Shown piece after piece: positions 49,572 through 64,000 of a stretch of DNA of 64,000 bases. The first letter of the stretch is position 1. Every line of letters starts with the position of its first letter. The DNA is taken from assembly GCF_016765695.1 (NCBI RefSeq), contig NZ_JAETGO010000075.1:1-64000 (forward strand), in the 5' to 3' direction. Made by a program: the position numbers and the translations under genes. Origin of the DNA: Sporosalibacterium faouarense (GTDB taxonomy: Bacteria > Bacillota > Clostridia > Tissierellales > VENL01). Below the pieces are notes generated by a model. It did no database searches, was not told the DNA's origin, and saw nothing but the letters and a program-made list of their open reading frames with translations.

Positions 49572-50651
49572 ATGAATAGAAATCTATTAAAAAGAATAAT
49601 AACCTTATCTCTGTTTTTAATACTTATCACACTTGCAGTTATAACATACAATGACGTTAAGAAGCTTTCTTCAAATCAAGATGATAGTATAGCTGTTATA
49701 GATTCTAATAATAATAAGATAAAGGTTGGTTTCTCTTTAGGAACCTTGAAGGAAGAAAGATGGATACGAGATAGGGATATATTAGTAGCAAAGTTAATAG
49801 AATTTGGAGCTGATGTTTTAGTACAAAATGCTAACAATGACGATGAAGACCAATTGAAGCAGGTTAAGTATTTAATAAGTCAGAATATAGATGTACTTAT
49901 CCTAGTTCCAAACGATTATGAAAAAGCAAAGGAATCAGTAAGAATAGCGAAAGAAAATGGCGTAAAGGTAATCTCCTATGATAGACTTGTTTTAAATTCG
50001 GATGTAGACTTATATATATCCTTTGACAATGAGAAGGTAGGAGAGCTTATGGCATCTTATCTTGTAAAACGGATACCTAGAGGGAATTACCTTATTATAA
50101 ATGGTGCAAAGAGTGATAATAATACTAGTATGATAAAAAAAGGCTATGATAAAGTCTTGAGTAGTAAAATTAAAAATAAAGATATAAATATATTGAAGGA
50201 AGAATGGTCAGTGAACTGGATGAATGAGTACGCATTCAGAGTTACCGACGAATTAATACAAGATAATGAAGAAATAGACGCCATCATAACAGGAGATGAC
50301 AATCTAGCAGGAGGAGTAATCAAAGCTTTATCGGAACATAGGATGGCTGGTAATGTATTAGTAACTGGTCAAGATGCTGACTTATCTGCTTGTCAAAGGA
50401 TTGTTGAAGGGACCCAAGCCATGACAGTATATAAACCAATTGAAAAATTAGCTGAGGCAACAGCATCATTTGCCATAAAACTTGCTAATAATGAAAATGT
50501 AAACGTGGAAAAAACCATTTTTGATGGTAGCTTTGATGTTCCCTATTGTGTTTTAGAGCCTATACTGGTGGATAAATATAACATGGATGATACTATTATT
50601 AAGGATGGATTTCATCTTAAAAATGAAGTATATAAAAATTTTACTGATTAA
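49572..50651 (+). CDS. membrane-anchored XylF-like sugar-binding protein
   Basis: 359 aa. N-terminal span (~8-27) without a lipobox Cys, then a type I binding domain strongly like the XylF lipoprotein at 50846 (KVGFSLGTLKEERWIRDRDILVAKLIEFGADVLVQNANND; VISYDRLVLNSDVDLYISFDNEKVGELMASYLV; VTGQDADLSACQRIVEGTQAMTVYKPI). It is in the same unit as the kinase and regulator (12-nt gap). It is best read as a sensory homologue of XylF (XylFII-like) rather than the transporter's own receptor. A terminator separates it from xylF. Confidence 0.85.
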   Translation: MNRNLLKRIITLSLFLILITLAVITYNDVKKLSSNQDDSIAVIDSNNNKIKVGFSLGTLKEERWIRDRDILVAKLIEFGADVLVQNANNDDEDQLKQVKYLISQNIDVLILVPNDYEKAKESVRIAKENGVKVISYDRLVLNSDVDLYISFDNEKVGELMASYLVKRIPRGNYLIINGAKSDNNTSMIKKGYDKVLSSKIKNKDINILKEEWSVNWMNEYAFRVTDELIQDNEEIDAIITGDDNLAGGVIKALSEHRMAGNVLVTGQDADLSACQRIVEGTQAMTVYKPIEKLAEATASFAIKLANNENVNVEKTIFDGSFDVPYCVLEPILVDKYNMDDTIIKDGFHLKNEVYKNFTD

Positions 50652-50663
50652 TAGAGAAAGTTA

Positions 50664-50691
50664 CAGGTCAAATTGGCCTGTATTTTTTTAT
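50664..50691 (+). terminator. intrinsic terminator of the sensor operon
   Basis: TACAGGTC pairs with GGCCTGTA (one G:T pair), loop AAATT, followed by seven T. Confidence 0.88.
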
Positions 50692-50788
50692 GTTAAAAAA
50701 TTACTATTGCAATTTGAATATTCTGAAAATAATAAAATTATCAAGCAGTTAAAAAAAATAATCTAGATACATAGAGTATAGGCTTTAG

Positions 50789-50823
50789 TATAATTAAAAT
50801 ACGAACGTTGGAAACGTTTTCTA
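50789..50823 (+). promoter_or_regulatory. xylF promoter -10 and cre-like palindrome
   Basis: TATAAT (50789-50794) predicts a start near 50801. TTGGAAACGTTTTCTAA (from 50809) is a near-perfect palindrome matching cre at 12 of 14 core positions. It lies just inside the transcript, where CcpA acts as a roadblock. No good -35 is visible, which fits an activator-dependent (YesN) promoter. Confidence 0.65.
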
Positions 50824-50845
50824 ATAAAAAGGGGGAAATACTAAA

Positions 50846-51862
50846 ATGAAAAAAGCATTATCATTGTTAATTGCTATGATTTTAATTGTTACTTTGATTG
50901 GTGGATGTTCTCAAAGTAAAGAAACATCAAGTGATAAGGTCAAAGTAGGTCTATCATTACCAACACAAAGAGAAGAAAGATGGGTAAGAGATAAGGATAA
51001 GATGATAGAAGTAGCTGAAGAAAAGGGAATAGACCTATTAGTTAAAGTTGCTGATGCTGATATGCAAGAACAAATAACTCAAGTTGAAGCATTATTGAGT
51101 CAAGGCATTGATGTATTGATACTAGCACCTCATGATGCATCTGCAGCAGCTACATTAGTTGAAAAGGCTAAAAAAGAAGGAGTACCAGTAATTTCTTATG
51201 ACCGTTTAATAACAAACACAGATAAATTAGATTATTACTTATCATTTGATAATGTTAAAGTTGGTGAATTGCAAGGCAAATTCATAACTGAAAAGGTTCC
51301 AGAAGGTAAATACATTATAATGTCAGGTGCACCAACTGATAATAATGCTAAGCTATTCAAACAAGGTGCTATGAAATACATACAACCATTAATAGATGAT
51401 GGAAAAATAGAAGTTATTGCAGAACAGGCTGTTGAAAATTGGGTTCCAGAAAATGCTCTTAAGATAGTTGAGGCTGCCTTAGCTGCAAATAATAATGAAG
51501 TTGATGCAATATTAGCACCAAATGATGGTACAGCAGGTGCAGCTATCCAAGCATTAACTGCTCAAGGACTAGCTGGTGAGGTACCTATTACTGGTCAAGA
51601 TGCTGAGAAAGCAGCAGCTAAAAGAATTTTAGAGGGAACTCAATCAATGACTATATTTAAAGACACTAGAGCTTTAGGTGAAGAAGCAATAGATATGGCT
51701 ATAAAGTTAGCAAATGGAGAATCAATTGAAGCTAATGGGGCAGTAGACAATGGAAAAATTGAAGTTCCTTCAGTATTATTAACACCACAAGTTGTAGATA
51801 AAGATAACTTAAATGAAACACTAGTTGATAGCGGATACATTAAAGAGTCTGAGCTTGAATAA
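50846..51862 (+). CDS. xylF: XylF-type sugar ABC transporter substrate-binding lipoprotein
   Basis: 338 aa. Lipoprotein signal peptide with lipobox LIGGC (Cys21), then a periplasmic-binding type I domain with KVGLSLPTQREERWVRDKDKM and ISYDRLITNTDKLDYYLSFDNVKVGELQG, characteristic of XylF/ChvE-type receptors for xylose, glucose or arabinose. It acts at the outer membrane face. ATG follows AAAGGGGGAAATACTAAA. Separated from the ATPase gene by an mRNA hairpin. Exact sugar not determinable; D-xylose is the leading guess. Confidence 0.9.
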   Translation: MKKALSLLIAMILIVTLIGGCSQSKETSSDKVKVGLSLPTQREERWVRDKDKMIEVAEEKGIDLLVKVADADMQEQITQVEALLSQGIDVLILAPHDASAAATLVEKAKKEGVPVISYDRLITNTDKLDYYLSFDNVKVGELQGKFITEKVPEGKYIIMSGAPTDNNAKLFKQGAMKYIQPLIDDGKIEVIAEQAVENWVPENALKIVEAALAANNNEVDAILAPNDGTAGAAIQALTAQGLAGEVPITGQDAEKAAAKRILEGTQSMTIFKDTRALGEEAIDMAIKLANGESIEANGAVDNGKIEVPSVLLTPQVVDKDNLNETLVDSGYIKESELE

Positions 51863-51872
51863 TTAGTCTGTT

Positions 51873-51900
51873 AGAGGAATAGCTTAAGGGTTATTCCTCT
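51873..51900 (+). terminator. intercistronic hairpin between xylF and xylG
   Basis: AGAGGAATA pairs with TATTCCTCT. Only ATCTTTT follows, so it is probably a partial terminator or an mRNA-stabilising 3' structure that raises binding-protein output over the transporter genes. Confidence 0.6.
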
Positions 51901-51928
51901 ATCTTTTAGAAAGGTGGTCTAGTTACAC

Positions 51929-53467
51929 ATGAGCGAATACATATTGGAAATGAAAAATATTATAAAAGAATTTCCAGGAGTTAGAGCACTAGATGATGTA
52001 AATTTTAAAGTAAAGAAGGGGGAAATTCATGCTTTAGTTGGAGAGAATGGAGCAGGAAAATCAACTCTTATGAAGGTCTTAAGTGGAGTATATCCAAATG
52101 GGACCTATGAAGGAAAGATAATTATAAATGAAGAAGAAAAGGAATTTAGTAATATAAAGGATTCAGAGAGAGCTGGAATAGGTATAATTTATCAAGAACT
52201 GACTTTGGTTAAGCAAATGAATATATGTGAGAATATATTTTTAGGAAGTGAATTTTCTAAATATGGAGTAATTGACTGGAATAGAGCAATGTCAGAGACA
52301 AAAAAAGTATTAAAGGAAGTTGGATTAAATGATAGTCCAGATACTAAAATAGTCCATTTAGGGATAGGAAAGCAGCAACTGGTAGAAATAGCAAAGGCTA
52401 TATCAAAGAAGGTAAATATTCTGATATTAGATGAGCCGACTGCTGCCCTTAATGAAAATGATAGTGAGAATTTATTAGATATAATAAGAAGTTTAAAAGA
52501 TCAAGGAATCACCTGCATATATATTTCTCATAAACTGAAAGAAGTAAAGGAGATAGCAGATACTATTACTATATTACGGGATGGTCAGACAATTGAAACC
52601 TTTGAAAATAATAAGGATGCTACAATGGATAGAATTATAACAGATATGGTTGGCAGGGAGATGACTCAATTATTTCCAAGGGAAGAGCATATACCTGGAG
52701 ATATAGTACTTGAAGTGAACAATTTCTCAGTTTACAATCCCGAGCTTCCAGATAAAAGGGTTATAGATAATGTCAGTTTTAAAGCAAGGAAAGGAGAAAT
52801 ACTAGGAATAGCTGGTCTTATGGGGTCAGGAAGAACAGAGCTTATGATGAGCTTATTTGGAGCCTATGGAATCAATAAATCAGGTGAAGTAACTATAGAT
52901 AATGAAAAAGTAAAGATAAAGAGCCCAGAGGATGCTATAAAAAAAGGTTTCTGTTATCTATCTGAGGATAGAAAAAAGAGTGGATTGGTTCTTATGATGG
53001 ATATAAAGGAAAACACAACTCTTGCAAGTCTTAGAAAGATTTCATCTATTAGAGGAATAAATGAAAATGAAGAAATAAAAGTAACGAATAATTATGTGGA
53101 TGTTTTAAAAATAAAAACACCTTCTATAGAGCAAAAAGTTAGAAATCTAAGTGGAGGAAATCAGCAGAAAGTAGTTATATCAAAATGGTTAATGGCTGAG
53201 CCTAAGATACTTGTATTAGATGAGCCTACTAGAGGCATAGACGTTGGAGCCAAATATGAAATATATAATATTATGAACCAGTTAGTTGATAAAGGTGTTA
53301 GTATCATAATGATCTCTTCGGAGTTACCAGAGGTATTGGGTATGAGCGACAGAATATTGGTTATGAATGAAGGGAAATTTACGGCTGAACTAGACTTTAA
53401 AGATGCAGACCAAGAAAAGGTTATGTATTATGCAACTGGTGGGCAAATCATAGAAGCCACTAATTAA
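51929..53467 (+). CDS. xylG: XylG-type sugar ABC transporter ATPase (two NBDs)
   Basis: 512 aa with two nucleotide-binding domains, as in MglA/RbsA/XylG. NBD1: Walker A GENGAGKST, signature LGIGKQQLVEIAKA, Walker B ILILDEPTAALNEND. NBD2: degenerate P-loop GLMGSGRTE, signature LSGGNQQKVVISKWL, Walker B ILVLDEPTRGIDVGAKYEIYNIMNQL. It powers sugar import with the permease that follows after 13 nt. ATG follows AAAGGTGGTCTAGTTACAC. Confidence 0.93.
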   Translation: MSEYILEMKNIIKEFPGVRALDDVNFKVKKGEIHALVGENGAGKSTLMKVLSGVYPNGTYEGKIIINEEEKEFSNIKDSERAGIGIIYQELTLVKQMNICENIFLGSEFSKYGVIDWNRAMSETKKVLKEVGLNDSPDTKIVHLGIGKQQLVEIAKAISKKVNILILDEPTAALNENDSENLLDIIRSLKDQGITCIYISHKLKEVKEIADTITILRDGQTIETFENNKDATMDRIITDMVGREMTQLFPREEHIPGDIVLEVNNFSVYNPELPDKRVIDNVSFKARKGEILGIAGLMGSGRTELMMSLFGAYGINKSGEVTIDNEKVKIKSPEDAIKKGFCYLSEDRKKSGLVLMMDIKENTTLASLRKISSIRGINENEEIKVTNNYVDVLKIKTPSIEQKVRNLSGGNQQKVVISKWLMAEPKILVLDEPTRGIDVGAKYEIYNIMNQLVDKGVSIIMISSELPEVLGMSDRILVMNEGKFTAELDFKDADQEKVMYYATGGQIIEATN

Positions 53468-53480
53468 AGGAGGAAAATTT

Positions 53481-54686
53481 ATGGAAAGTAAAGCAAAAAT
53501 AAAACAAGGTTCTATAGATATAATAAGAATGTCCTTAAAAAACAACATAAGACAATATACCATGTTTATTGCACTTATAGGAATTATGATTATATTTTCC
53601 CTTTTAAGTGACGTTTTTTTTACACCTAGAAATCTGTCAATGCTATTTCTACAAACCGCTCATATAGCTATATTGGCTTGTGGAGTTGTACTGGTCATAG
53701 TTGCAGGTCATATAGATTTGTCAATTGGCGCAGTAGTAGGATTGACTGGTGCAATTACGGCAATTCTTCAAGCTAAGCTTGGACTTGGCGTATTTCCAGC
53801 AGTATTATTAACTATAGGATTTGGAGCACTAATTGGACTTTGGCAAGGATATTGGGTTGCCTATAGAGAAGTACCAGCTTTCATTGTAACCTTGGCAGGT
53901 ATGATGATATTCAATGGCTTGTTATTAGGAGTTAGTAATGGTGAAACTATTGCTACTAGTTCTTTTTTCAATAAAATTGGCCAAGATTATATACCCACAC
54001 TATTTGTAGAAAATAATCCTAAAGATATGCTTCCCCACGATACAACAATTATCATTATGGGTCTAGTCATTATAGGATATTTATTCCTTGAGATAAGAAA
54101 GAGGAAAGAAAGAAAAAAATACGACTTTGATATATTACCTATGAATTTATTTGTATTGAAGGTGGGTCTTGTAATTGTATTAATAGCATCAATATTTATA
54201 ATTTTATCTCTATATCTTGGAATTCCTTATTCAATACTTCTATTAATGGGAATTGGAGGTCTGTATACTTATTTAACTAATAAAACTACTTTTGGTAGAC
54301 ATGTATATGCTATAGGAGGAAATAAAGAAGCTGCAAAGTTATCAGGTATAGATATAAAGAAAAGAACCTTATGGATATTTATTTCATCTGGAATACTTGG
54401 TGCAATAGGTGGTATGGTATATACTGCAAGGGTTGGATCTGCTGCAGCTTCAGCAGGTCAAGGTATGGAGCTTGATGTAATAGCAGCTGCTATAATAGGT
54501 GGTACATCTACCCTTGGTGGAGAAGGTACTATAGTAGGAGCGATAATAGGAGCATTGGTAATGAGTACACTGAATAATGGTATGTTATTACTAGATGTGG
54601 GAGTGACACAGAGATTAATAGTAAAGGGACTAGTTTTGCTACTAGCTGTTTGGGTAGATATATCTTCACGTAAAAAATCTAGCTAA
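53481..54686 (+). CDS. xylH: XylH-type sugar ABC transporter permease
   Basis: 401 aa, about ten spans. BPD_transp_2 family: LACGVVLVIVAGHIDLSIGAVVGLTGAITAILQAKLGLG and the late signature GGNKEAAKLSGIDIKKRTLWIFISSGILGAIGGMVYTARVGSAAASAGQGMELDVIAAAIIGGTSTLGGEGTIVGAIIGALVMSTLNNGM. The extra length compared with RbsC (~320 aa) is typical of XylH/GguB. SD AAAGGAGGAAAATTT. Confidence 0.93.
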   Translation: MESKAKIKQGSIDIIRMSLKNNIRQYTMFIALIGIMIIFSLLSDVFFTPRNLSMLFLQTAHIAILACGVVLVIVAGHIDLSIGAVVGLTGAITAILQAKLGLGVFPAVLLTIGFGALIGLWQGYWVAYREVPAFIVTLAGMMIFNGLLLGVSNGETIATSSFFNKIGQDYIPTLFVENNPKDMLPHDTTIIIMGLVIIGYLFLEIRKRKERKKYDFDILPMNLFVLKVGLVIVLIASIFIILSLYLGIPYSILLLMGIGGLYTYLTNKTTFGRHVYAIGGNKEAAKLSGIDIKKRTLWIFISSGILGAIGGMVYTARVGSAAASAGQGMELDVIAAAIIGGTSTLGGEGTIVGAIIGALVMSTLNNGMLLLDVGVTQRLIVKGLVLLLAVWVDISSRKKSS

Positions 54687-54717: not shown

Positions 54718-54745
54718 AGTCAGGCAGTAATGCCTGACTGTTTTT
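54718..54745 (+). terminator. intrinsic terminator after xylH
   Basis: AGTCAGGCA, loop GTAA, TGCCTGACT, then GTTTTT. Confidence 0.92.
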
Positions 54746-55592: not shown

Positions 55593-56173
55593 TTAAATTA
55601 AGAATATTGCATAAGTATATAAATGAGAAAGTAAAAATAATATTTCATCAGCATTTTCTAATTAAGTATTTTTAAATAAAGAAATCAATTAGAGTTTAGA
55701 AAATAACAGATTCTTTTAAAAATATTCAATCAATATATTGCAATGGAAAAAAATGTGTGTTACTATATTATTAAATTGGTATATACAACATAACAATAAT
55801 ACAAACCTCTTATATTTCTTTCTATATATCTACTAATGATTTGTAATAAATATATGTCTAACCTATCAGAGCGATTATAATATATATATTTCCTAAAATT
55901 TCAAATAATCCTTATTTTTTGCTTTTTTAATAAAATCCTAGACCAGTTTAACTTTCAAATATTTAGCTATATCGTCAATAGAAAATACCATAGTCTAATA
56001 TTGAAAACAAGTAAGTTTAGTTGTTTTATTATGTCTCACTTTATAGGGGATGGAAATCTATATAGATTTATAGTTATATAGATTGACATAAGATCAAAAG
56101 CAAGGAGGTGGAAGTGTTTTTTAGTTTTTAGTTCTTTATTTTAAATTATAAAAATATTAAAGGGGGTTAAATT
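55593..56173. other. long AT-rich intergenic region before the PTS operon
   Basis: 580 nt without a credible gene. Near its right end lie a perfect 16-bp palindrome AAATCTATATAGATTT (56054-56069), a second TATATAGATT (56076-56085), and TTGACA (56084-56089) without a matching -10. The palindrome is a candidate operator for the PTS operon. No sigma-54 promoter (GG-N10-GC type), which many mannose-family PTS operons use, was recognised. Confidence 0.4.
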
Positions 56174-56914
56174 GTGCACGATTATGGTTTTCTAATACCA
56201 TTATTACTAGGGCTATGGGCATACATATCAATAATTGCTCAGCTTACAGGTTTATGGTGGGCAGAGGCACTAATAAGTGGAGCTCTTACAGGTCTTATTG
56301 TTGGTGATGTTAATTTAGGATTACAAATTGGTGCTACTCTGACTCTTATGTCATTAGGCATGTGGACATATGGTGGAGCAACAATGCCAGACTTTAACAC
56401 AGGTGCTATTATAGGTACAGCAATAGGGGCTCTAGGTTCAGGACTGGAAGGTGGATTAGCAATAGCTATTCCTACTTCGATTTTAATGACGCAGCTTGAT
56501 GTTCTTGCCCGTGCAACTACAACTGTTTTTATTCATGGAGCAGACAAACATTTAGAGAAAGGAAATCTAAAAGGAATTACAAAAATGCATTTGTTGGGTC
56601 AAATACCTTGGGGACTAAGTAGGGGCATACCAGTATTTTTAGCAGTATGGCTAGGTGCTGGACCTATACAAAAAGTTATTGAGTGGTTCCCAGAGTGGTT
56701 TATGGGTGGTATGCAATTAGCAGGAAAAGTTTTACCAGCCCTTGGATTTGCACTATTACTTAATCAAATTAATGTTAAGAAGTACTGGCCATTCCTATTG
56801 GTAGGATTTGCTTTATTTGCTTATATTAATATGCCTATTATGGGTATAGCAATGTTAGGTTTGGCTATTGCAATCGTTTATATGCGCTTAGAAGGGGGGT
56901 CTTCTAATGCCTAG
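56174..56914 (+). CDS. PTS mannose/fructose/sorbose-family IIC component
   Basis: 246 aa, many hydrophobic spans. Family signatures: FLIPLLLGLWAYISIIAQLTGLWWAEALISGALTGLIVGDVNLGLQIGATLTLMSLGMWTYGGATMPDFNTGAIIGTAIGA. With IID it forms the membrane channel of a mannose-type (splinter) PTS, importing and phosphorylating a sugar. GTG start after AAAGGGGGTTAAATT. First gene of a probable operon reaching the end of the window. Confidence 0.92.
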   Translation: MHDYGFLIPLLLGLWAYISIIAQLTGLWWAEALISGALTGLIVGDVNLGLQIGATLTLMSLGMWTYGGATMPDFNTGAIIGTAIGALGSGLEGGLAIAIPTSILMTQLDVLARATTTVFIHGADKHLEKGNLKGITKMHLLGQIPWGLSRGIPVFLAVWLGAGPIQKVIEWFPEWFMGGMQLAGKVLPALGFALLLNQINVKKYWPFLLVGFALFAYINMPIMGIAMLGLAIAIVYMRLEGGSSNA

Positions 56915-57746
56915 TACTGATATGGAAAAAACAACAAAAACTAAAATAGATAAAGCTACGTTAAAAAAGGCAATGTGGAGAGATATTTTTACATTACAAT
57001 GGTCATGGAACTATGAAAGAATGCAAGCATTAGGATTCTTATGGGCTATTTTACCAGTTTTACAGAAGGTATATAAGAAAGGTGAAGAATTAAAAGAAGC
57101 AATGCAAAGGCATCTTCAATTCTATAATACTAATCCAGTGGCATCTCCTTTAATTTTAGGTGCTTCTATCGCCTTAGAAGAAGATAAGGCAGGGCAAGCT
57201 GCTAGTAGTATTAAGGTAGGACTAATGGGTCCATTGGCTGGTATAGGAGACACTATACAAGCAGTTTTATTTAGACCTATTATAGCAGTTATAGCAGCTT
57301 CCTTAGCAATGGGAGGGAGTATGTCTGGTCCACTCTTAATTTTCCTAGCTGGTATTCTTTGGATGGCAGTTAAGGTACCTTTATTCTGGTTAGGCTACAA
57401 TAAGAGTACAGGATTAATAGGTGAAGTAGCAGGTAAAGGTCTACTTGATAAAGTTACTAATACTGCAACGATTGCTGGATTAATTGTTATCGGTGGATTT
57501 ATACCGAGTATTTTAAGTCGATTAACAACACCATTACAGTTTGCTAGAACAGTTACTGTTGATGGTGAAGCGGTAGAAAAGGTAATTAAGGTTCAAGAGG
57601 TATTAGATGGTATAGTACCTTTCTTGATTCCAGTATTAATCGTTGGATTAGGGTATTATTTAATAAAACGTAAGCTTTCCCCAATCAAAGTGTTATTGAT
57701 ATTAGTAGCTCTATCCTTCATTACAAATGCATTGGGAATCTTATAA
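56907..57746 (+). CDS. PTS mannose/fructose/sorbose-family IID component
   Basis: 279 aa. Cytoplasmic N-terminal half (MWRDIFTLQWSWNYERMQALGFLWAILPVLQKVYKKGEELKEAMQRHLQFYNTNPVASPLILGASIALEE, characteristic of IID), then spans including GLMGPLAGIGDTIQAVLFRPIIAVIAASLA. It overlaps IIC by 8 nt, with AAGGGGGG before the ATG. A hairpin follows that may reduce read-through to IIA and IIB. Confidence 0.92.
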   Translation: MPSTDMEKTTKTKIDKATLKKAMWRDIFTLQWSWNYERMQALGFLWAILPVLQKVYKKGEELKEAMQRHLQFYNTNPVASPLILGASIALEEDKAGQAASSIKVGLMGPLAGIGDTIQAVLFRPIIAVIAASLAMGGSMSGPLLIFLAGILWMAVKVPLFWLGYNKSTGLIGEVAGKGLLDKVTNTATIAGLIVIGGFIPSILSRLTTPLQFARTVTVDGEAVEKVIKVQEVLDGIVPFLIPVLIVGLGYYLIKRKLSPIKVLLILVALSFITNALGIL

Positions 57747-57776
57747 TATTAGATTGAATTAAAGATATTTGACTAA

Positions 57777-57836
57777 TAAAATAGTCTCCTTTTAAAGGAA
57801 AATTAATCTTCTAAGAGGAGGCTATTTATTTTTAAT
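57777..57836 (+). terminator. hairpin between IID and IIA
   Basis: AAAATAGTCTCCTTTT pairs with AAGAGGAGGCTATTT with small mismatches, followed by ATTTTTAAT. It is a probable partial terminator inside the operon. Confidence 0.65.
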
Positions 57837-57858
57837 AAACAGAGAGAGGAAGTAAGAA

Positions 57859-58251
57859 ATGATAGGAATTATACTAGCAAGTCATGGTCCATTGGCAAAG
57901 GCAACATTGAAATCAGCAGAAATGATCATGGGAGAACAAGAGAATATTACAGCTTTGGCTTTAGAGCCTCAAGATGATCCACAAGAATTAAAGAATAAGA
58001 TTTATGATGCTGCAGAAAAGGTTGATATGGGAAAAGGAGTAATTATCTTAGTTGATTTACTTGGAGGATCACCTGGAAATGCAGCAGCATATCTAGCTAA
58101 GGATGGCTACCCTGTTATTACAGGACTAAATTTACCCATGTTATTAGAAGTAATAGGCATGAGATATGGTGACTTAGAAGAAGGCGTTAGAATAGCTATT
58201 GATGCAGGTATAGAGGGTATTAAGGATTTAAGAGAATTTTTAAGGGGGTAA
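57859..58251 (+). CDS. PTS mannose-family IIA component
   Basis: 130 aa. MIGIILASHGPLAKATLKSAEMIMG gives the phosphorylated H9; the body is EIIA-man-like (VIILVDLLGGSPGNAAAYLAKDGYPVITGLNLPMLLEVI). It takes phosphate from HPr and passes it to IIB, as a separate polypeptide here. ATG follows AGAGAGAGGAAGTAAGA. The gap to IIB is 5 nt. Confidence 0.93.
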   Translation: MIGIILASHGPLAKATLKSAEMIMGEQENITALALEPQDDPQELKNKIYDAAEKVDMGKGVIILVDLLGGSPGNAAAYLAKDGYPVITGLNLPMLLEVIGMRYGDLEEGVRIAIDAGIEGIKDLREFLRG

Positions 58252-58256
58252 AATGA

Positions 58257-58739
58257 ATGATAGTACATATGAGAATTGATAACAGGTTAATACATGGTCA
58301 GGTTACTGTGAGCTGGGTAAGTTCAGTAGGTGCAGAGCATTTATTAGTAGTAAATGATGAAGTGTCTAAAGATCCTATTCAAAAGCAGATGCTTCCAATG
58401 GCTGCTAGAGGAGTCAAAACATCAGTATTTTCTATTGATGAAGCCGTTGATTATGTTAAGAATTCTGATAGCAAAGAAAAAATAATGATAATAGCTAAAT
58501 TTCCTTCAGATGCACTGAACTTATTAGAAAACGGATTAGAGCCTCAAGAAATAAATGTTGGAAATCAAGCTCCATTACCAGGGACTAAATACAAAATGGT
58601 AACAAAGTCTATAGCAGTTACAGAGGAAGATGCATCTATATATAGACAAATTAATAAAAAGCATCATTTAACTTCACAAATGATGCCCTCTAATTCAAAA
58701 AAGAGCTTCATAGAGATAATTGAGGAAAAAGGTCTTTAG
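58257..58739 (+). CDS. PTS mannose-family IIB component
   Basis: 160 aa. MIVHMRIDNRLIHGQVTVSWV carries the phospho-histidine H13 in the family motif R-(I/L)-D-x-R-L-(I/L)-H-G-Q-V, and ends in the usual IIB fold (LPMAARGVKTSVFSIDEAVDYV). It phosphorylates the sugar as it passes IIC-IID. SD is AAGGGGGT in the end of the IIA gene. Confidence 0.93.
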   Translation: MIVHMRIDNRLIHGQVTVSWVSSVGAEHLLVVNDEVSKDPIQKQMLPMAARGVKTSVFSIDEAVDYVKNSDSKEKIMIIAKFPSDALNLLENGLEPQEINVGNQAPLPGTKYKMVTKSIAVTEEDASIYRQINKKHHLTSQMMPSNSKKSFIEIIEEKGL

Positions 58740-58772
58740 ATTATATACTAATTTTATTGTGGAGGTTTTAAT

Positions 58773-60041
58773 ATGAAAATTGGTAGGGGAAAACAAGATA
58801 TTACTCCTCTATATCCAATTGTAATGGGAGGCTATGGAGACAGGTCAGGTAAATCTCAAGATGTTCTAGATAGAATTTTTGCAAGAACAATAGTTTTAGA
58901 AGATGATGAAGAACAAAAGATTGTTATAATTGCCTTAGATATAATTGGATTAACAAGAGTACAGATTCAATATATAAAGAAGAATATATTTAAACTAACA
59001 GGCATTTTAAAAGAAAATATTGTTATTAGTGTAACCCATACTCATTCAGGACCTTTGACATATGATTACCCTACAATGGGTAAAGCAGATGAAGAATATG
59101 TTGAATGGCTATATAAGGTTATACCAACAACAGTAGTTAAAGCATTGAAAGATTTAAAAGAATGTAAGATAGATTGGTACCAAGGGAATTTCTCAGATGT
59201 AGGGAATTCTAGACGTTCAAGAAATAAAAAAGTTGAACCGATATTAACCATTTTAGGATTTACTGATTTAAGAGATAATCTATTAGCTACTTTATTTAAT
59301 TATAATTGTCATCCCACAGTATTATCAGCAGCTAATTTGGAGATATCAGCTGACTACCCCGGTGCTAGTATAGATTTACTAGAGAAGGTATACGGAGAGG
59401 ATGCCTTATTTGTTTTTACAAATGGAGCATGTGGAGATATTAGCACTCGCTTTACAAGGAGAAGCCAGGACTATAGAGAGGTTAAACGACTAGGGAGCCT
59501 GTTAGCAGCAGAGGTTATTAAAGTCCTTAATAAAATGGAGTTTACCCAAGAGGTACCCAATGTTTTTATTAAAGGAAGGGACTTTGAATTACAGCCTAGA
59601 GAATTACCAAGCTTAGAAGAGTTAGAAACACAAGAAAAAGTTTATCAAGAAAGACTTATAAAACTAGAAAATGAAGGGGCAGATGGTGGAGATATTAGAA
59701 TAGCCCATACGGCTCTTCAAGGTGTAAGAGTACAGAAACTTCTGAAGGAGTATGCTTCGAGATTAGAACTTAATGGCATAATGAAGGGAATCAAAATAGG
59801 TAATGGAGTAATTATAACTCAACCTGCAGAGTTGTTTTCCAGTCTTGGAAATACTATTATAAATGCTTCTCCCTATGAAATAACAATGGTTATAGGATAT
59901 GCTGAGGGCTCAATTGGGTATTTACCTGATAAAAAATCTTATAATGAAGGTGGATATGAAGCTCTTTCTTGTAGATTTAAGGTAGGAGAAGGCGAAAGAT
60001 TAGCAGACATGGCAATATCACTACTAAAGGAAATGGAGTGA
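58773..60041 (+). CDS. neutral-ceramidase-superfamily hydrolase, cytoplasmic
   Basis: 422 aa. MKIGRGKQDITPLYPIVMGGYGDRS is the typical start of the neutral/alkaline ceramidase N-terminal domain; VTHTHSGP and NYNCHPTVL hold putative zinc histidines, and FTNGACGDISTR follows. True ceramidases are secreted zinc amidases of ~650 aa or more; this one is shorter and has no signal peptide, so it should act inside the cell on an imported compound. Standing between PTS and SIS genes, an N-acyl or phosphorylated sugar amide is a possible substrate (inference). ATG follows GTGGAGGTTTTAAT. Confidence 0.78.
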   Translation: MKIGRGKQDITPLYPIVMGGYGDRSGKSQDVLDRIFARTIVLEDDEEQKIVIIALDIIGLTRVQIQYIKKNIFKLTGILKENIVISVTHTHSGPLTYDYPTMGKADEEYVEWLYKVIPTTVVKALKDLKECKIDWYQGNFSDVGNSRRSRNKKVEPILTILGFTDLRDNLLATLFNYNCHPTVLSAANLEISADYPGASIDLLEKVYGEDALFVFTNGACGDISTRFTRRSQDYREVKRLGSLLAAEVIKVLNKMEFTQEVPNVFIKGRDFELQPRELPSLEELETQEKVYQERLIKLENEGADGGDIRIAHTALQGVRVQKLLKEYASRLELNGIMKGIKIGNGVIITQPAELFSSLGNTIINASPYEITMVIGYAEGSIGYLPDKKSYNEGGYEALSCRFKVGEGERLADMAISLLKEME

Positions 60042-60045
60042 GTTT

Positions 60046-60792
60046 ATGCTATTTGAATTCTATGATAAGGTTGAAGATCTTTTAAATGAAATTAAAGATA
60101 CTCAAAGCAGTACCATACAGTTAATAGCTGATAAAGTAGCAACTATTATAGATAGGGGAGGGATTTTATATACCTTTGGGACAGGTCACTCTCACCTTTT
60201 AGCAGAAGAGATATATGCTAGAGCAGGGGGATTATTTCAAGTAAAAGCTATTTTAGAGCCAGAGCTTATGCTACATCAAATCCATGGTAAAAGCACATTA
60301 ATCGAGAGACTATCTGGTTATGCTGACATTATATTAGAGATAAATGAAGTAAGGAAAGGCGATGCTATCATTATAATATCAAATTCTGGAAGAAATTCTG
60401 TACCTATTGAATTAGCTATTAAAGCTAAGGAAAAAGGTCTATTAGTTATTGCTTTGACTAATTTGAAGCATAGCAAAAGTGTTGATTCTAGAAATAAAAG
60501 TGGAAAAAGACTATTTGAAGTTGCAGATTTTGTATTAGATAATTGTGGAGTACCAGGAGATGCTATTTTAAAAGTTAAAAATAAGCACTTTAAGATTGCT
60601 CCAACCTCAACCATAGCTGGAGCGGTAATTTTGCAAGGATTAGTCGCTGGAATAGTTGATAAGATTCATGGTGAGGGTAAAGAAGTTCCAGTAATGGTAA
60701 GTGCAAATCTTGATAACAGTGATCAATATAATGAAAAGCAATTAGAGAAATTACTAGAAAAGCATCCAGAACTTTTTAAAATATTAAGATAA
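60046..60792 (+). CDS. SIS-domain sugar isomerase-type protein (1)
   Basis: 248 aa. SIS fold with the phosphosugar-binding motifs YTFGTGHSHLLAEEIYARAGGL (~45-66) and IIIISNSGRNSVPIELAIKAKEKG (~108-131), then DNCGVPGDAIL and APTSTIAGAVILQGLVAGI, matching the UPF0309 type. It binds phosphorylated sugars, isomerising or deaminating them in known relatives; the substrate is unknown. It starts 4 nt after the ceramidase-like gene and is a paralogue of the gene at 62123, on the other side of nagA. Confidence 0.87.
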   Translation: MLFEFYDKVEDLLNEIKDTQSSTIQLIADKVATIIDRGGILYTFGTGHSHLLAEEIYARAGGLFQVKAILEPELMLHQIHGKSTLIERLSGYADIILEINEVRKGDAIIIISNSGRNSVPIELAIKAKEKGLLVIALTNLKHSKSVDSRNKSGKRLFEVADFVLDNCGVPGDAILKVKNKHFKIAPTSTIAGAVILQGLVAGIVDKIHGEGKEVPVMVSANLDNSDQYNEKQLEKLLEKHPELFKILR

Positions 60793-60891
60793 AGAAATTA
60801 TATTTTAAATTTCAATTCTTTGCAAAATTGATTATGGATGTTTATGTGTAATCTCAAAAACAGTGAATTCGATAATGAAGGGGGAAATAAG

Positions 60892-62133
60892 GTGTCCAAA
60901 GTTTTATTGAAAAGCAAAATGATATATACAAGTGATGGATTAAAGAGTGGCGCTATACTTATAGAAGATAGCAAAATAAAAGATATTATTTTCAACACTG
61001 AAGAGATTAGAAGTTTTGAAGGTAAAGTAATTGATGTAGAGAACAATTCTATTATTCCAGGATTGATAGACATACATATTCATGGTGCAGGAGGATGGAC
61101 TGTAACCGGTGGAACTGTGGAAGATATTAAAGGGTTAACTACTTATTTAACCACTAGAGGGGTCACATCTTTCCAACCTACTATCGGGGGAAGTCCTTTA
61201 GAGGCCATAAAGAATACATTGAAAGAATTAAGTATAGCTATAAAGAATAAAAGTCAAGGAACAAGAATACTAGGAATTCATTTAGAAGGTCCATTTTTAA
61301 ATCCAGAGAAGAAAGGTGCCTTTAGTCTTGAATTTTTAGAAAAGCCTTCTGTTGAGTTAGTTAAAGAATTTATAGAATTGAGTAATGATAATATAATCCA
61401 TGTTTCATTGGCACCTGAACTAGAAGGAGCAAAAGAAGTTATTGAGTATTTAGTAGATAAAGGTATTTTAGTTTCAGGGGCTCATACGAATGCAACAATA
61501 GAAGAAACTAAAAAAGCCATACGATGGGGAGTGAGTCTCTCAAATCATACTTGTAATGCTCAAAGGTCTATACATCATAGAGAACCTGGAGCATTAGGAG
61601 GATATTTATTAGATGATGGTGTGGACTGTGAGTTAATATGTGACTCATTCCATGTACATCCTGATATGATAAGACTAGTCACTAAAATAAAGACGATTGA
61701 TAAAATCTGTGTAATATCTGATGCTATTACAGCTTCTGGGGTAAAGCCAGGAGAATATGCATTTTTAGGACGTAAAGCCTTAATAGATAAAGATGGTTGG
61801 AGTAGATTACCTGATGGAACTATCGCTGGTAGTACAAGGGATTTATTATATGGACTAGAGAATCTAGTAGAGAATATTGGGTATTCCATGGAGGATGCTT
61901 TGAAAATGACTTCTTTAAATCCCGCTAGACTATCTGGATATCAAGAATGCAAGGGAAGCATAGAAGTGGGTAAGGATGCAGACTTAGTTATCCTAGATGA
62001 GAATTATAAAATTAAATATACCTTTGTTGAAGGAGAGATGGTATATAGTTCAGAACAAGAAGGACCATTTACTAATCCAAAGATTCAGCCTATAAGAAGT
62101 ATTGAAGAAGTGGGGGATGAGTATGAAAATTAA
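60892..62133 (+). CDS. nagA: N-acetylglucosamine-6-phosphate deacetylase
   Basis: 413 aa. Amidohydrolase with GLIDIHIHGAGGW, GIHLEGPFLNPEKKGA (metal Glu), VSGAHTNATIEETKKA, SNHTCNAQRSIHHREPGALGG, and the catalytic Asp in VISDAITASG. It removes acetate from an N-acetyl-hexosamine 6-phosphate. GlcNAc-6-P is the default; GalNAc-6-P (AgaA) is possible, since a SIS protein rather than NagB is adjacent. The GTG start is 6 nt after AAGGGGGA; an ATG 18 codons upstream lacks a ribosome site. The stop overlaps the next gene. Confidence 0.9.
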   Translation: MSKVLLKSKMIYTSDGLKSGAILIEDSKIKDIIFNTEEIRSFEGKVIDVENNSIIPGLIDIHIHGAGGWTVTGGTVEDIKGLTTYLTTRGVTSFQPTIGGSPLEAIKNTLKELSIAIKNKSQGTRILGIHLEGPFLNPEKKGAFSLEFLEKPSVELVKEFIELSNDNIIHVSLAPELEGAKEVIEYLVDKGILVSGAHTNATIEETKKAIRWGVSLSNHTCNAQRSIHHREPGALGGYLLDDGVDCELICDSFHVHPDMIRLVTKIKTIDKICVISDAITASGVKPGEYAFLGRKALIDKDGWSRLPDGTIAGSTRDLLYGLENLVENIGYSMEDALKMTSLNPARLSGYQECKGSIEVGKDADLVILDENYKIKYTFVEGEMVYSSEQEGPFTNPKIQPIRSIEEVGDEYEN

Positions 62134-62866
62134 TGCTGAAGTTTTCTTTAAAGAGGCTTATAAAATCTTAGATGAGCTTAAGGAAACACAGATGGAAAAA
62201 ATTAAAGAAGCAAGTTATATATTAACTGAATCTATTTCTAGAGACGGAGTTATACATATTTTCGGTTCAGGGCACTCTAAGGCATTTGCAATGGAATTAG
62301 TTTATAGAGCAGGTGGATTGGTACCAATGCATAGGGTAACGTTGGATGACTTAGCACTGAAAGGAGATCTTTCAGCTGAGGATTTACTAGATCCACAAAT
62401 TGAAAGGGATCCAGAAAATGCTCACAAGTTATGGAACCTTTACGAAATTCATCCCCAGGATGCCTTTATTATAGTTTCAAATTCAGGAAGGAATGGAACC
62501 ATAGTTGAGTTTGCATCCATGGTTAAAGAAAAGAATATGCCATTAATTGTTGTAACATCCATAGCGCATTCAAAGGATACTGTATCGAGACATAATAGTG
62601 GCAAGAAATTATATGAGTTAGGGGATGTGGTAATAGATAACTGTGGACCTAAGGGAGATGCTTTAATTCCAGTAGAAGGTTTAAGGATGAAAGCTTGCTC
62701 CATTTCGTCAATTACTGGTGCATTCATTGCCCAAGGATTAACAGCAGAAACTATAAACAATTTTAAAGAAAAAGGTGTAACACCACCTGTGTTTATAAGC
62801 GCTAATGTTGATGGAGGAGACCAGCATAATGATGCACTAAGGGCTAAGTACGAGGGTAGAATATAG
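62123..62866 (+). CDS. SIS-domain sugar isomerase-type protein (2)
   Basis: 247 aa. IHIFGSGHSKAFAMELVYRAGGLVP and IIVSNSGRNGTIVEFASMVKEKNMPLIVVTS, then DNCGPKGDALI and CSISSITGAFIAQGLTAETI. Same UPF0309-like family as the gene at 60046, but clearly diverged, so the pair probably acts on different phosphosugars. ATG follows GTGGGGGATGAGT and overlaps the nagA stop by 11 nt, giving tight coupling to deacetylation. Confidence 0.87.
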   Translation: MKINAEVFFKEAYKILDELKETQMEKIKEASYILTESISRDGVIHIFGSGHSKAFAMELVYRAGGLVPMHRVTLDDLALKGDLSAEDLLDPQIERDPENAHKLWNLYEIHPQDAFIIVSNSGRNGTIVEFASMVKEKNMPLIVVTSIAHSKDTVSRHNSGKKLYELGDVVIDNCGPKGDALIPVEGLRMKACSISSITGAFIAQGLTAETINNFKEKGVTPPVFISANVDGGDQHNDALRAKYEGRI

Positions 62867-62947
62867 ATGATTTTGAAAAGTACAATAGCCAATTCATCCA
62901 TAAATATAGGGAAGGAATTAGGGGTTGCAATGGGAGTGTTTTTATGA
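62867..62947 (+). CDS. 26-codon frame bridging SIS and dehydrogenase genes
   Basis: ATG 62867 directly follows the SIS stop; the frame MILKSTIANSSINIG... runs to a TGA that overlaps the dehydrogenase ATG (ATGA). GAGGG lies 10 nt upstream. It may only couple translation, or be a remnant; no family is recognised. Confidence 0.2.
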   Translation: MILKSTIANSSINIGKELGVAMGVFL

Positions 62948-64000
62948 GGAAAATAAAGGTTGGATTAGTAGGATACGGTTATATAGGAAAGGTTCATTCT
63001 GTTGGATATTCAAATATACCAATAGTTATTGATAACTTGGATATAGAAATTGAAATGTCTAAGGTAATTAGAAGAAAAGAATCAATAAAAGAAAAAAATC
63101 TTTGGTTGAGTCTTGGACATGAAATCGAAGATTTAGTTAATGAAGGTGTAGAAATAGCAGATATATGTACACCTAATTATCTTCATAGGTCTCAGGTAGA
63201 ATATTTGGCTAAAAATGGTGTGAATATTTATTGTGAAAAACCATTGGGACTTAATTACGAAGAGTGTACTAGGTTGGCAGATATTACTGAAGAAGAAGAT
63301 ATTATCAATCAAGTTGCTCTCGTTTACAGATTTATGCCAGCTATAGCAAAGGCGAGGAGTTTTTTATTAAATAATGGTTTAGGGGATATAATCAACTTTC
63401 GAGGACATTTATTCCATGGAAGCTATTTAAATCCTAAGCGACCCATTTCATGGAGACTCCAAAGAAACAAATCAGGTGGAGGAGCTCTAGTTGATTTAGG
63501 AATTCATATTGTAGATACAGTAAGATTTCTATTAGGGGAAGTGGAGTCGGTAAAGGCTGAGACTAACACAGTGTTTAAGGAAAGACCAAATGATGATGGA
63601 GGATATTCTATAGTAGATGTAGATGATTGGGGATTAGTCAATTTAGATATGGTAGATGGAGCTAAAGGGACCATTGAAGTTTCAAAAGTATCTGTAAATC
63701 CTTTAGAAGTGTTCAATATTGAAATTTACGGTACAAAGGGGTTTATAAAGATTACTGATAAGGATTTCTATGAACCGAATGTGTTTTTATTTAATAAAGA
63801 CAATAATCTTGAGAAAATAACTATTGCAGATTTTGATCCTTACTCAAGATATTTAAATACTATAATTCCATCACCTAAGATGTCATTAGGCAGTATGATA
63901 GATATGCATCTAGCCAGCCAGGTGAATATCCTAAATAATATTTCAAAAAACAGAATTATTTTTCATGAGACTCCTACTTTTTCAGAAGGAGCTAAATCTC
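62944..64000 (+). CDS. Gfo/Idh/MocA-family oxidoreductase (partial, runs off the window)
   Basis: 352 codons are visible and no stop is reached. Rossmann start MRKIKVGLVGYGYIGKVHSVGYS (GxGxxG), then the family's EKP motif in VNIYCEKPLGLNYEEC (~103), and GGGALVDLGIHIVDTVRFLLGEVESV (~178) in the substrate domain. These NAD(P)-dependent enzymes oxidise or reduce a hydroxyl of sugars, inositols or their phosphates; some start NAD-dependent glycoside cleavage or sugar epimerisation. GGGAGTG is 5 nt before the ATG. It extends the amino-sugar operon. Confidence 0.9.
   Translation, partial: MRKIKVGLVGYGYIGKVHSVGYSNIPIVIDNLDIEIEMSKVIRRKESIKEKNLWLSLGHEIEDLVNEGVEIADICTPNYLHRSQVEYLAKNGVNIYCEKPLGLNYEECTRLADITEEEDIINQVALVYRFMPAIAKARSFLLNNGLGDIINFRGHLFHGSYLNPKRPISWRLQRNKSGGGALVDLGIHIVDTVRFLLGEVESVKAETNTVFKERPNDDGGYSIVDVDDWGLVNLDMVDGAKGTIEVSKVSVNPLEVFNIEIYGTKGFIKITDKDFYEPNVFLFNKDNNLEKITIADFDPYSRYLNTIIPSPKMSLGSMIDMHLASQVNILNNISKNRIIFHETPTFSEGAKS

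Follow-up and report, generated by a model that had tools for sequence, protein, structure and literature searches.

The described systems closest to the operon reported here are the nagA-nagB-nagR/nagP genes of Bacillus subtilis, the N-acetylmuramic acid (MurNAc) operons murQ-murP of Escherichia coli and murQ-murR-murP-amiE-nagZ of B. subtilis, and the Aga-type N-acetylgalactosamine (GalNAc) operons (AgaS, KbaY). Our operon lies at the end of a 64,000-nucleotide stretch of Sporosalibacterium faouarense DNA (the window; bases 1-64,000 of the 78,259-base contig NZ_JAETGO010000075.1) and runs past base 64000. It is like the B. subtilis nag system in having NagA, NagB, a GntR/HutC regulator nearest to NagR and a dre-like operator. 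However, it has a mannose-family phosphotransferase system (PTS) instead of NagP, and it adds MurQ, a ceramidase-like protein (CER), two SIS proteins (SIS1 and SIS2), a Gfo/Idh/MocA dehydrogenase (Gfo) and a HAD hydrolase. It shares MurQ, a PTS and an amidase-like hydrolase (AmiE in B. subtilis, CER here) with the MurNAc operons. In contrast to these, its gene list includes no MurR and no MurP-type enzyme IIBC component (EIIBC), its putative amidase is of the zinc ceramidase-like type and apparently cytoplasmic, and its control is predicted to be of the NagR type.

Like the Aga-type operons, the operon has a mannose-family PTS and a NagA-type deacetylase, but AgaS, KbaY and LacC are not among its genes. 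We considered a GalNAc-only (Aga) PTS and rejected it, as the matches to AgaW (151 vs 300 bits), AgaE (138 vs 500 bits) and AgaF (94 vs 130 bits) were all below the cut-offs for GalNAc and galactosamine equivalogs.

We found that the backbone of the operon is textbook and that the CER, SIS and Gfo additions are conserved and unexplained. We suggest, with modest confidence, that this is one operon under NagR-type control for the uptake and breakdown of N-acyl amino sugars, including MurNAc, and that CER takes off an amide-linked group. As expected for its family, the PTS would import the sugar as a 6-phosphate. CER, as a cytoplasmic zinc amidase, would act where NagA cannot, stripping an amide-linked group; the likeliest candidates are an acyl group other than acetyl and, in a MurNAc derivative, the amide carried by the lactyl arm. 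From what is known of their families, MurQ would give N-acetylglucosamine-6-phosphate (GlcNAc-6P) by C2-C3 elimination, NagA would deacetylate GlcNAc-6P, and NagB would deaminate the product to fructose-6-phosphate. The NagS-type SIS proteins may apply C2-C3 elimination chemistry to other C3-substituted or epimeric derivatives, and Gfo and the HAD phosphatase may serve to correct the oxidation state or to recover phosphates that would otherwise be dead ends. Oxidation-assisted cleavage by Gfo is also possible.

The core route

MurQ, NagA and NagB each scored above the NCBI equivalog cut-offs (Table 1), and their genes lie in one strand-consistent run. Going by established family functions, the route from MurNAc-6-phosphate (MurNAc-6P) through GlcNAc-6P and glucosamine-6-phosphate to fructose-6-phosphate appears to be fully encoded. 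MurNAc-6P and GlcNAc-6P are the best-supported part of the pathway, given MurQ, NagB and the NagR-type regulator. All four mannose-family components of the transporter (IIA, IIB, IIC and IID) are encoded, each with its Pfam family above cut-off; this set stands in the unit in place of a glucose-family NagP/NagE transporter, which is not present. NagB retains R172, K208 and the G-x-T loop, NagA retains R227 and H251, and the SIS proteins retain the phosphate-binding serines 119 and 121. We take the NagB and NagA residues to have the roles known from E. coli; that the operon has all of them is consistent with 6-phosphate substrates.

An earlier sequence-only reading of the window had proposed import and breakdown of a modified or N-acylated amino sugar, with the hydrolase cleaving an amide or ester. 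An amino sugar fits our results, and the hydrolase probably acts on an amide. Plain GlcNAc is not the whole story; MurQ, NagB and a NagR-type regulator follow past the window edge.

Operator and regulator

A putative NagR/DasR-type operator, TTGGTATATACAACAT, lies upstream of the operon. This is the sole exact copy in the 4.1-Mb genome. The identical 16-mer is found 5' of the orthologous operons in loci L015, L016, L017 and L119, and it heads the matching PTS operon in two other families. In L015 it is directly 3' of a TTGACA-17-TAATAT promoter. The half-sites are asymmetric, with GG in one and T-5, G-4 and G-7 in the other, and such asymmetry is the pattern reported for native NagR dre sites (PMC4333415). 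At two mismatches, 0.58 matches to the operator pattern are expected by chance in the 64-kb window, so our case relies on three other points: the match is exact, it is rare genome-wide, and it is conserved.

The nearest solved relatives of the GntR protein are B. subtilis NagR/YvoA (E 1.6e-48) and DasR. With both this regulator and a dre-type operator sequence present, we predict NagR/DasR-like control. In the leader of approximately 380 bp, no riboswitch or other RNA element was recognized, with no Rfam match at E values up to 0.1. In another genome, a second exact copy of the operator (L099/L087; G041:C1:1397972) precedes a different GntR gene that is divergent from Gfo-type and zinc-dehydrogenase-like genes.

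CER

CER is a protein of 422 amino acids that looks to be single-domain and has no apparent signal peptide. It shares the catalytic-domain fold and the four zinc ligands of the neutral ceramidases (P. aeruginosa, 2zws; human, 4wgk), but it is shorter (neutral ceramidases have ~640-690 amino acids) and is found in an amino-sugar context. H89, H180, E353 and Y383 of CER align with H97, H204, E411 and Y448 of the P. aeruginosa enzyme, which we take to be its zinc ligands, and are invariant in 15 sequences. Ceramidase H99, R160 and Y460 align with H91, R147 and Y395 of CER, also invariant. The position of ceramidase S274 is Ser in CER of the PTS loci and Asn in Alphaproteobacteria. An AlphaFold model of moderate quality (predicted local distance difference test score, pLDDT, 69) supports the fold only; in a Foldseek search with this model, neutral ceramidases were the only confident PDB matches (prob 1.00, TM score 0.64-0.69 over the query).

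A true ceramidase was rejected. CER scored 27.9 bits against a cut-off of 1200 for NF041649, and its length and missing signal peptide also argue against that function. The natural reading is that CER still works as a zinc amidase but on a different substrate, apparently in the cytoplasm. At the bond to be cut, we infer a likeness between ceramide and N-acyl amino sugars, in the N-acyl 2-amino group beside oxygenated carbons. We found no description of ceramidase-like proteins in amino-sugar operons, although our coverage of the literature was incomplete and this is weak evidence of absence. Proteins of the CER type are usually annotated as ceramidases, and in anaerobes and Alphaproteobacteria such names may give the wrong substrate.

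SIS1 and SIS2

Both SIS proteins are homologues of Streptomyces NagS (SCO4393; PDB 9eol) and of PDB 3cvj. Since they match NF002805/NagS and 3cvj, we rejected an AgaS-type deaminase for either. NagS dehydrates GlcNAc-6P; its residues H53, R64, E94 and D179 are essential, and Ser91, which lies at the substrate site, affects catalysis (PMC12680351). The four essential residues were invariant in all SIS proteins compared (57/57), SIS1 and SIS2 included. In contrast to NagS, position 91 is Thr in SIS1 and Pro in SIS2, and the neighboring genes are those for the PTS and CER, not dmdR1.

The residue at position 91 varied with the kind of operon. The SIS proteins of the nagE-nagAB operons (L036, L041 and L104) have Ser, and those linked to agaS have Thr, as does SIS1. 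In PTS-Gfo/MurQ clusters, including that of SIS2, the residue is Pro; other PTS clusters have Gly, and the version without a PTS has Met. This trend has exceptions (e.g., L100, L074 and L111), and the sequences compared are related. SIS2 is a highly conserved partner of this PTS, with 65% identity in L107 and 72% in L119. SIS relatives also accompany plain nagE-nagA-nagB(-gntR) operons without CER, and thus a NagS-type SIS protein alone is no sign of an exotic substrate. For the SIS pair, AlphaFold gave a poor model (pLDDT 55, two sequences), which we did not use. No paper on UPF0309 was found, with the same incomplete coverage of the literature. In Listeria monocytogenes (L034), a UPF0309 SIS gene follows genes for an ascorbate-type PTS, a phosphotriesterase, a creatininase-family protein and a KDGP-aldolase-family protein.

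Gfo

The best-scoring PDB sequence for Gfo was 6a3f, a 'putative dehydrogenase'. The best-scoring curated family for Gfo was levoglucosan dehydrogenase (NF052479), yet at 174 bits against a cut-off of 650. We rejected the use of levoglucosan or another anhydro sugar on this score, and also because a 1,6-anhydro sugar cannot take a C6 phosphate from the PTS. Gfo orthologues with 49-59% identity lie inside the same kind of cluster in L020, L108, L119 and L120, and one further orthologue (L122) lies outside such a cluster.

Conservation of the gene set

We surveyed 249 genomes of the order and found 18 short CER genes, after excluding one of ceramidase length (732 amino acids). A UPF0309/NagS-type SIS gene was within 8 kb of 15 of the 18 CER genes (0.17 expected). 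Mannose-type PTS genes were beside most CER genes of the order, and also in L108, L119, L120 and L125. Locus L119, from another family, is nearly a gene-for-gene copy (IIC-IID-IIA-IIB-CER-NagA-SIS-Gfo-MurQ-GntR, with the operator). The identities there are 83% for IIC, 81% for IID, 64% for IIA, 74% for IIB, 54% for CER, 61% for NagA, 59% for Gfo, 73% for MurQ and 52% for the GntR protein. Because the gene set recurs in many genomes, it is not due to chance. The sequence-only reading had taken the gene order to point to one pathway, and had said that neighborhoods in relatives showing unrelated units would speak against this. The idea of one pathway holds up: CER, SIS, NagA, Gfo and PTS genes co-localize repeatedly, and unrelated units are not what the relatives show.

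A search of genome contigs gave just two remote relatives, both without a PTS. A class-wide search with a CER profile hit the whole superfamily in mixed contexts, and only the loci where CER adjoins NagA/NagB-like genes (L048, L049, L051, L058, L060 and L063) were informative. Locus L116 (G016:C1, ~599-604 kb) has genes for an RpiR protein, a mannose-type IIC-IID-IIB, a hydrolase and MurQ, and is likely a MurNAc operon with a mannose-family PTS.

Through conserved operon structure, a shared operator and retained active sites, two groups of orphans can be linked to amino-sugar metabolism: ceramidase-like proteins of the cytoplasm, and those UPF0309 SIS proteins that occur outside Streptomyces. 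A concrete set of substrates thereby becomes testable.

Versions without a PTS

CER, SIS, NagA and NagB genes with uptake by an ABC transporter or a symporter recur in Alphaproteobacteria and Firmicutes. The gene order LacI, NagB-like, SIS, NagA-like, CER, ABC transporter is found in Devosia, Martelella, Nitratireductor, Ponticoccus and Microvirga. These alphaproteobacterial loci (L024, L026, L027, L028, L030 and L044; plasmids) usually also encode an AGE-type protein, with a Gfo gene in Devosia. In two genomes of the window's own order (L121 and L128), this set is combined with a sodium:solute symporter for uptake. Some CER loci without a PTS carry mannonate dehydratase.

The SIS protein has Asn and Tyr in place of the phosphate-binding serines 119 and 121 in every one of the eight non-PTS CER loci examined. 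In the seven NagB-like enzymes examined, both the G-x-T loop and R172 have been lost. NagA of these loci keeps R227 and H251. The case for non-phosphorylated substrates in the ABC/symporter version is therefore mixed, the SIS and NagB-like residues arguing for them and the NagA residues against.

In a third grouping (the six informative loci above), CER is near NagA-like genes, several with an FGGY-type kinase. Several of these loci encode divergent NagB-like proteins of ~310-340 amino acids; the two tested had no Pfam match. Small proteins starting MISCT(E/Q)FIP adjoin CER loci (L049:6389-7283, L060:7697-8613 and L051:1483-2505). In L049 and L060 they are in tandem with a neighbor of similar size, and the one tested belonged to no Pfam family.

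We tentatively propose, as something possible and well short of probable, that CER and a NagS-type SIS protein, often with Gfo, form an undescribed module for modified N-acyl amino sugars. It would have a 6-phosphate version with a PTS and an ABC/symporter version in which the phosphate-binding residues of the SIS and NagB-like proteins have been lost. The SIS proteins would be C3 lyases and CER a hexosamine-specific amidase.

Weighing the explanations

Several observations weigh against the function that we suggest for the operon. The window's genome (G000) encodes MupG, together with another PTS, at a separate locus (L130; G000:C55:68560-71706). The only MurQ of this genome could therefore serve the MupG route instead, which weakens the case for MurNAc there. 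In locus L107 the same PTS (IIC 81%, IID 75%) is accompanied by SIS2, Gfo and NagA; CER and MurQ are both missing there, and the genome has no full MurQ. CER and MurQ are thus not obligatory for the transported sugar, and SIS2, NagA and Gfo are more central than CER to what this PTS is used for. Elsewhere, CER loci carry NanE or AgaS/KbaY/LacC (the latter in L022), so no single sugar fits all CER loci. Distant NagS homologues, with 26-36% identity, have negligible or no activity on GlcNAc-6P (PMC12680351). MupG of L130 is a 6-phospho-N-acetylmuramidase, and the PTS subunits of that locus look to be of the lactose/cellobiose type.

In a narrower form of our explanation, the operon would serve peptidoglycan fragments. 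The PTS would import amide-bearing MurNAc (MurNAc-L-Ala, a MurNAc-peptide or muramic lactam), CER would cut the amide inside the cell, MurQ would free lactate, and NagA and NagB would finish. CER would then do within the cell what AmiE does outside it in muropeptide salvage. MurQ is present in the window operon and in L119, and directly beside the PTS in L015-L017. The cluster MurQ is the only full MurQ in G041 and G015; as MurQ is in the cluster and MupG is absent in G015, G041 and G248, MurNAc is favored in these three genomes. G248 has a single weak glucose-family EIIC only. In L116, a related mannose-type PTS (IIC 51%) is followed by a cytoplasmic-looking hydrolase with a beta-lactamase fold and MurQ, and the order parallels B. 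subtilis murQ-murR-murP-amiE (PMC5061867). However, L107 has this PTS in a genome without full MurQ, MurQ is absent from the clusters at other CER loci (several of these genomes hold it elsewhere, at separate loci), AgaS/KbaY/LacC indicate a galacto configuration for which there is no muramic analogue, and the NanE clusters do not fit either. We regard this narrower explanation as rather unlikely. Our results might also indicate a plain GlcNAc- or GalNAc-type PTS operon in which CER, SIS and Gfo would only broaden tolerance or clear side products, much as NagS and NagA do in the 6P-chromogen I chemistry of Streptomyces. The SIS relatives in ordinary nagE operons without CER would fit, as would a NagR-type operator, suited to control by GlcNAc-6P or glucosamine-6-phosphate. 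NagA also has promiscuous activity on what NagS produces (PMC12680351). Still, CER-linked SIS proteins are mostly unlike those of nagE operons at position 91, and CER is kept with SIS, NagA and NagB across phyla and several transporter types, which goes beyond occasional tolerance. We consider a plain operon distinctly unlikely.

Two further explanations seem to us improbable, the second more so than the first. In one, the imported sugar is a 3-O-glycosylated N-acetylhexosamine (HexNAc; e.g., Gal- or uronosyl-1,3-HexNAc), whose C3 bond would be cleaved non-hydrolytically by the SIS protein or Gfo, so that a glycosidase is not needed. We recognized no glycosidase in the CER-PTS clusters, C2-C3 elimination is the chemistry of both NagS and MurQ, and the mannonate dehydratase of some non-PTS CER loci would also be in keeping; but CER is left unexplained, and the idea is wholly inferential. 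In the other, the compound that is imported and phosphorylated is GlcNAc-Asn or another glycosylamide like it; CER would be a glycosylasparaginase, and the freed glycosylamine would hydrolyze to GlcNAc-6P. This gives CER, an amidase by family, one obligatory step before NagA and NagB. However, the glycosylasparaginases that are known belong to the Ntn hydrolases, we recognized no linked gene for asparagine or aspartate in the loci, and MurQ and the SIS proteins are left unexplained.

Layout of the operon and neighboring genes

The sequence-only reading gave the order IIC-IID-IIA-IIB-ceramidase-SIS-nagA-SIS-oxidoreductase, and all nine genes were confirmed on the + strand, with Pfam matches above cut-off (Table 1). 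Its gaps of a few bases or overlaps are mostly as described, except for gaps of 112 bp (IID-IIA), 99 bp (SIS1-NagA) and 77 bp (SIS2-Gfo). None of these three contains a terminator-like site on the + strand. From the spacing, the common strand and the lack of terminators, we infer that the unit comprises 13 genes and ~11 kb behind one NagR-type operator. The probable start of NagA is a GTG after a GGGGG run; the open reading frame reaches back to an ATG at 60838.

Table 1. Features of the S. faouarense operon ('contig' marks positions past the window edge)
Feature	Position	Strand	Match or remark
Candidate promoter TGGAAA-16-TATTAT	55744-55771	+	weak consensus match; just 5' of operator
NagR/DasR-type (dre-like) operator TTGGTATATACAACAT	55776-55791	+	conserved 16-mer
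PTS mannose/sorbose-family EIIC	56174-56914	+	PF03609, 228 bits
PTS mannose-family EIID	56907-57746	+	PF03613, 285 bits
PTS mannose-family EIIA	57859-58251	+	PF03610, 94 bits
PTS mannose-family EIIB	58257-58739	+	PF03830, 144 bits
CER, ceramidase-like	58773-60041	+	PF04734, 67 bits
SIS1, UPF0309/NagS-type	60046-60792	+	NF002805, 281 bits vs cut-off 135
NagA, GlcNAc-6P deacetylase	60892-62133	+	TIGR00221, 344 bits vs cut-off 226
SIS2, UPF0309/NagS-type	62123-62866 (probable start ATG 62123)	+	NF002805, 296 bits vs cut-off 135
Gfo/Idh/MocA dehydrogenase	62944-contig 64062	+	PF22725, 90 bits; PF01408, 55 bits
HAD hydrolase, Cof type	contig 64059-64880	same as operon	
MurQ, MurNAc-6P etherase	contig 64931-65827	same as operon	TIGR00274, 352 bits vs cut-off 302
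GntR-UTRA regulator, NagR-like	contig 65852-66586	same as operon	
NagB	contig 66638-67426	same as operon	TIGR00502, 288 bits vs cut-off 237
Hairpin, 13-bp stem	contig 67453-67482		3' end of operon, after NagB

Beyond the hairpin at the 3' end are a separate RpiR gene, an Opp transporter and an M20 hydrolase. The upstream neighbor genes finish near a terminator-like hairpin (54718-54739). Set apart from the operon, the region 49572-54686 encodes two xylose/ChvE-like sugar-binding proteins, followed by ABC ATPase and permease genes.

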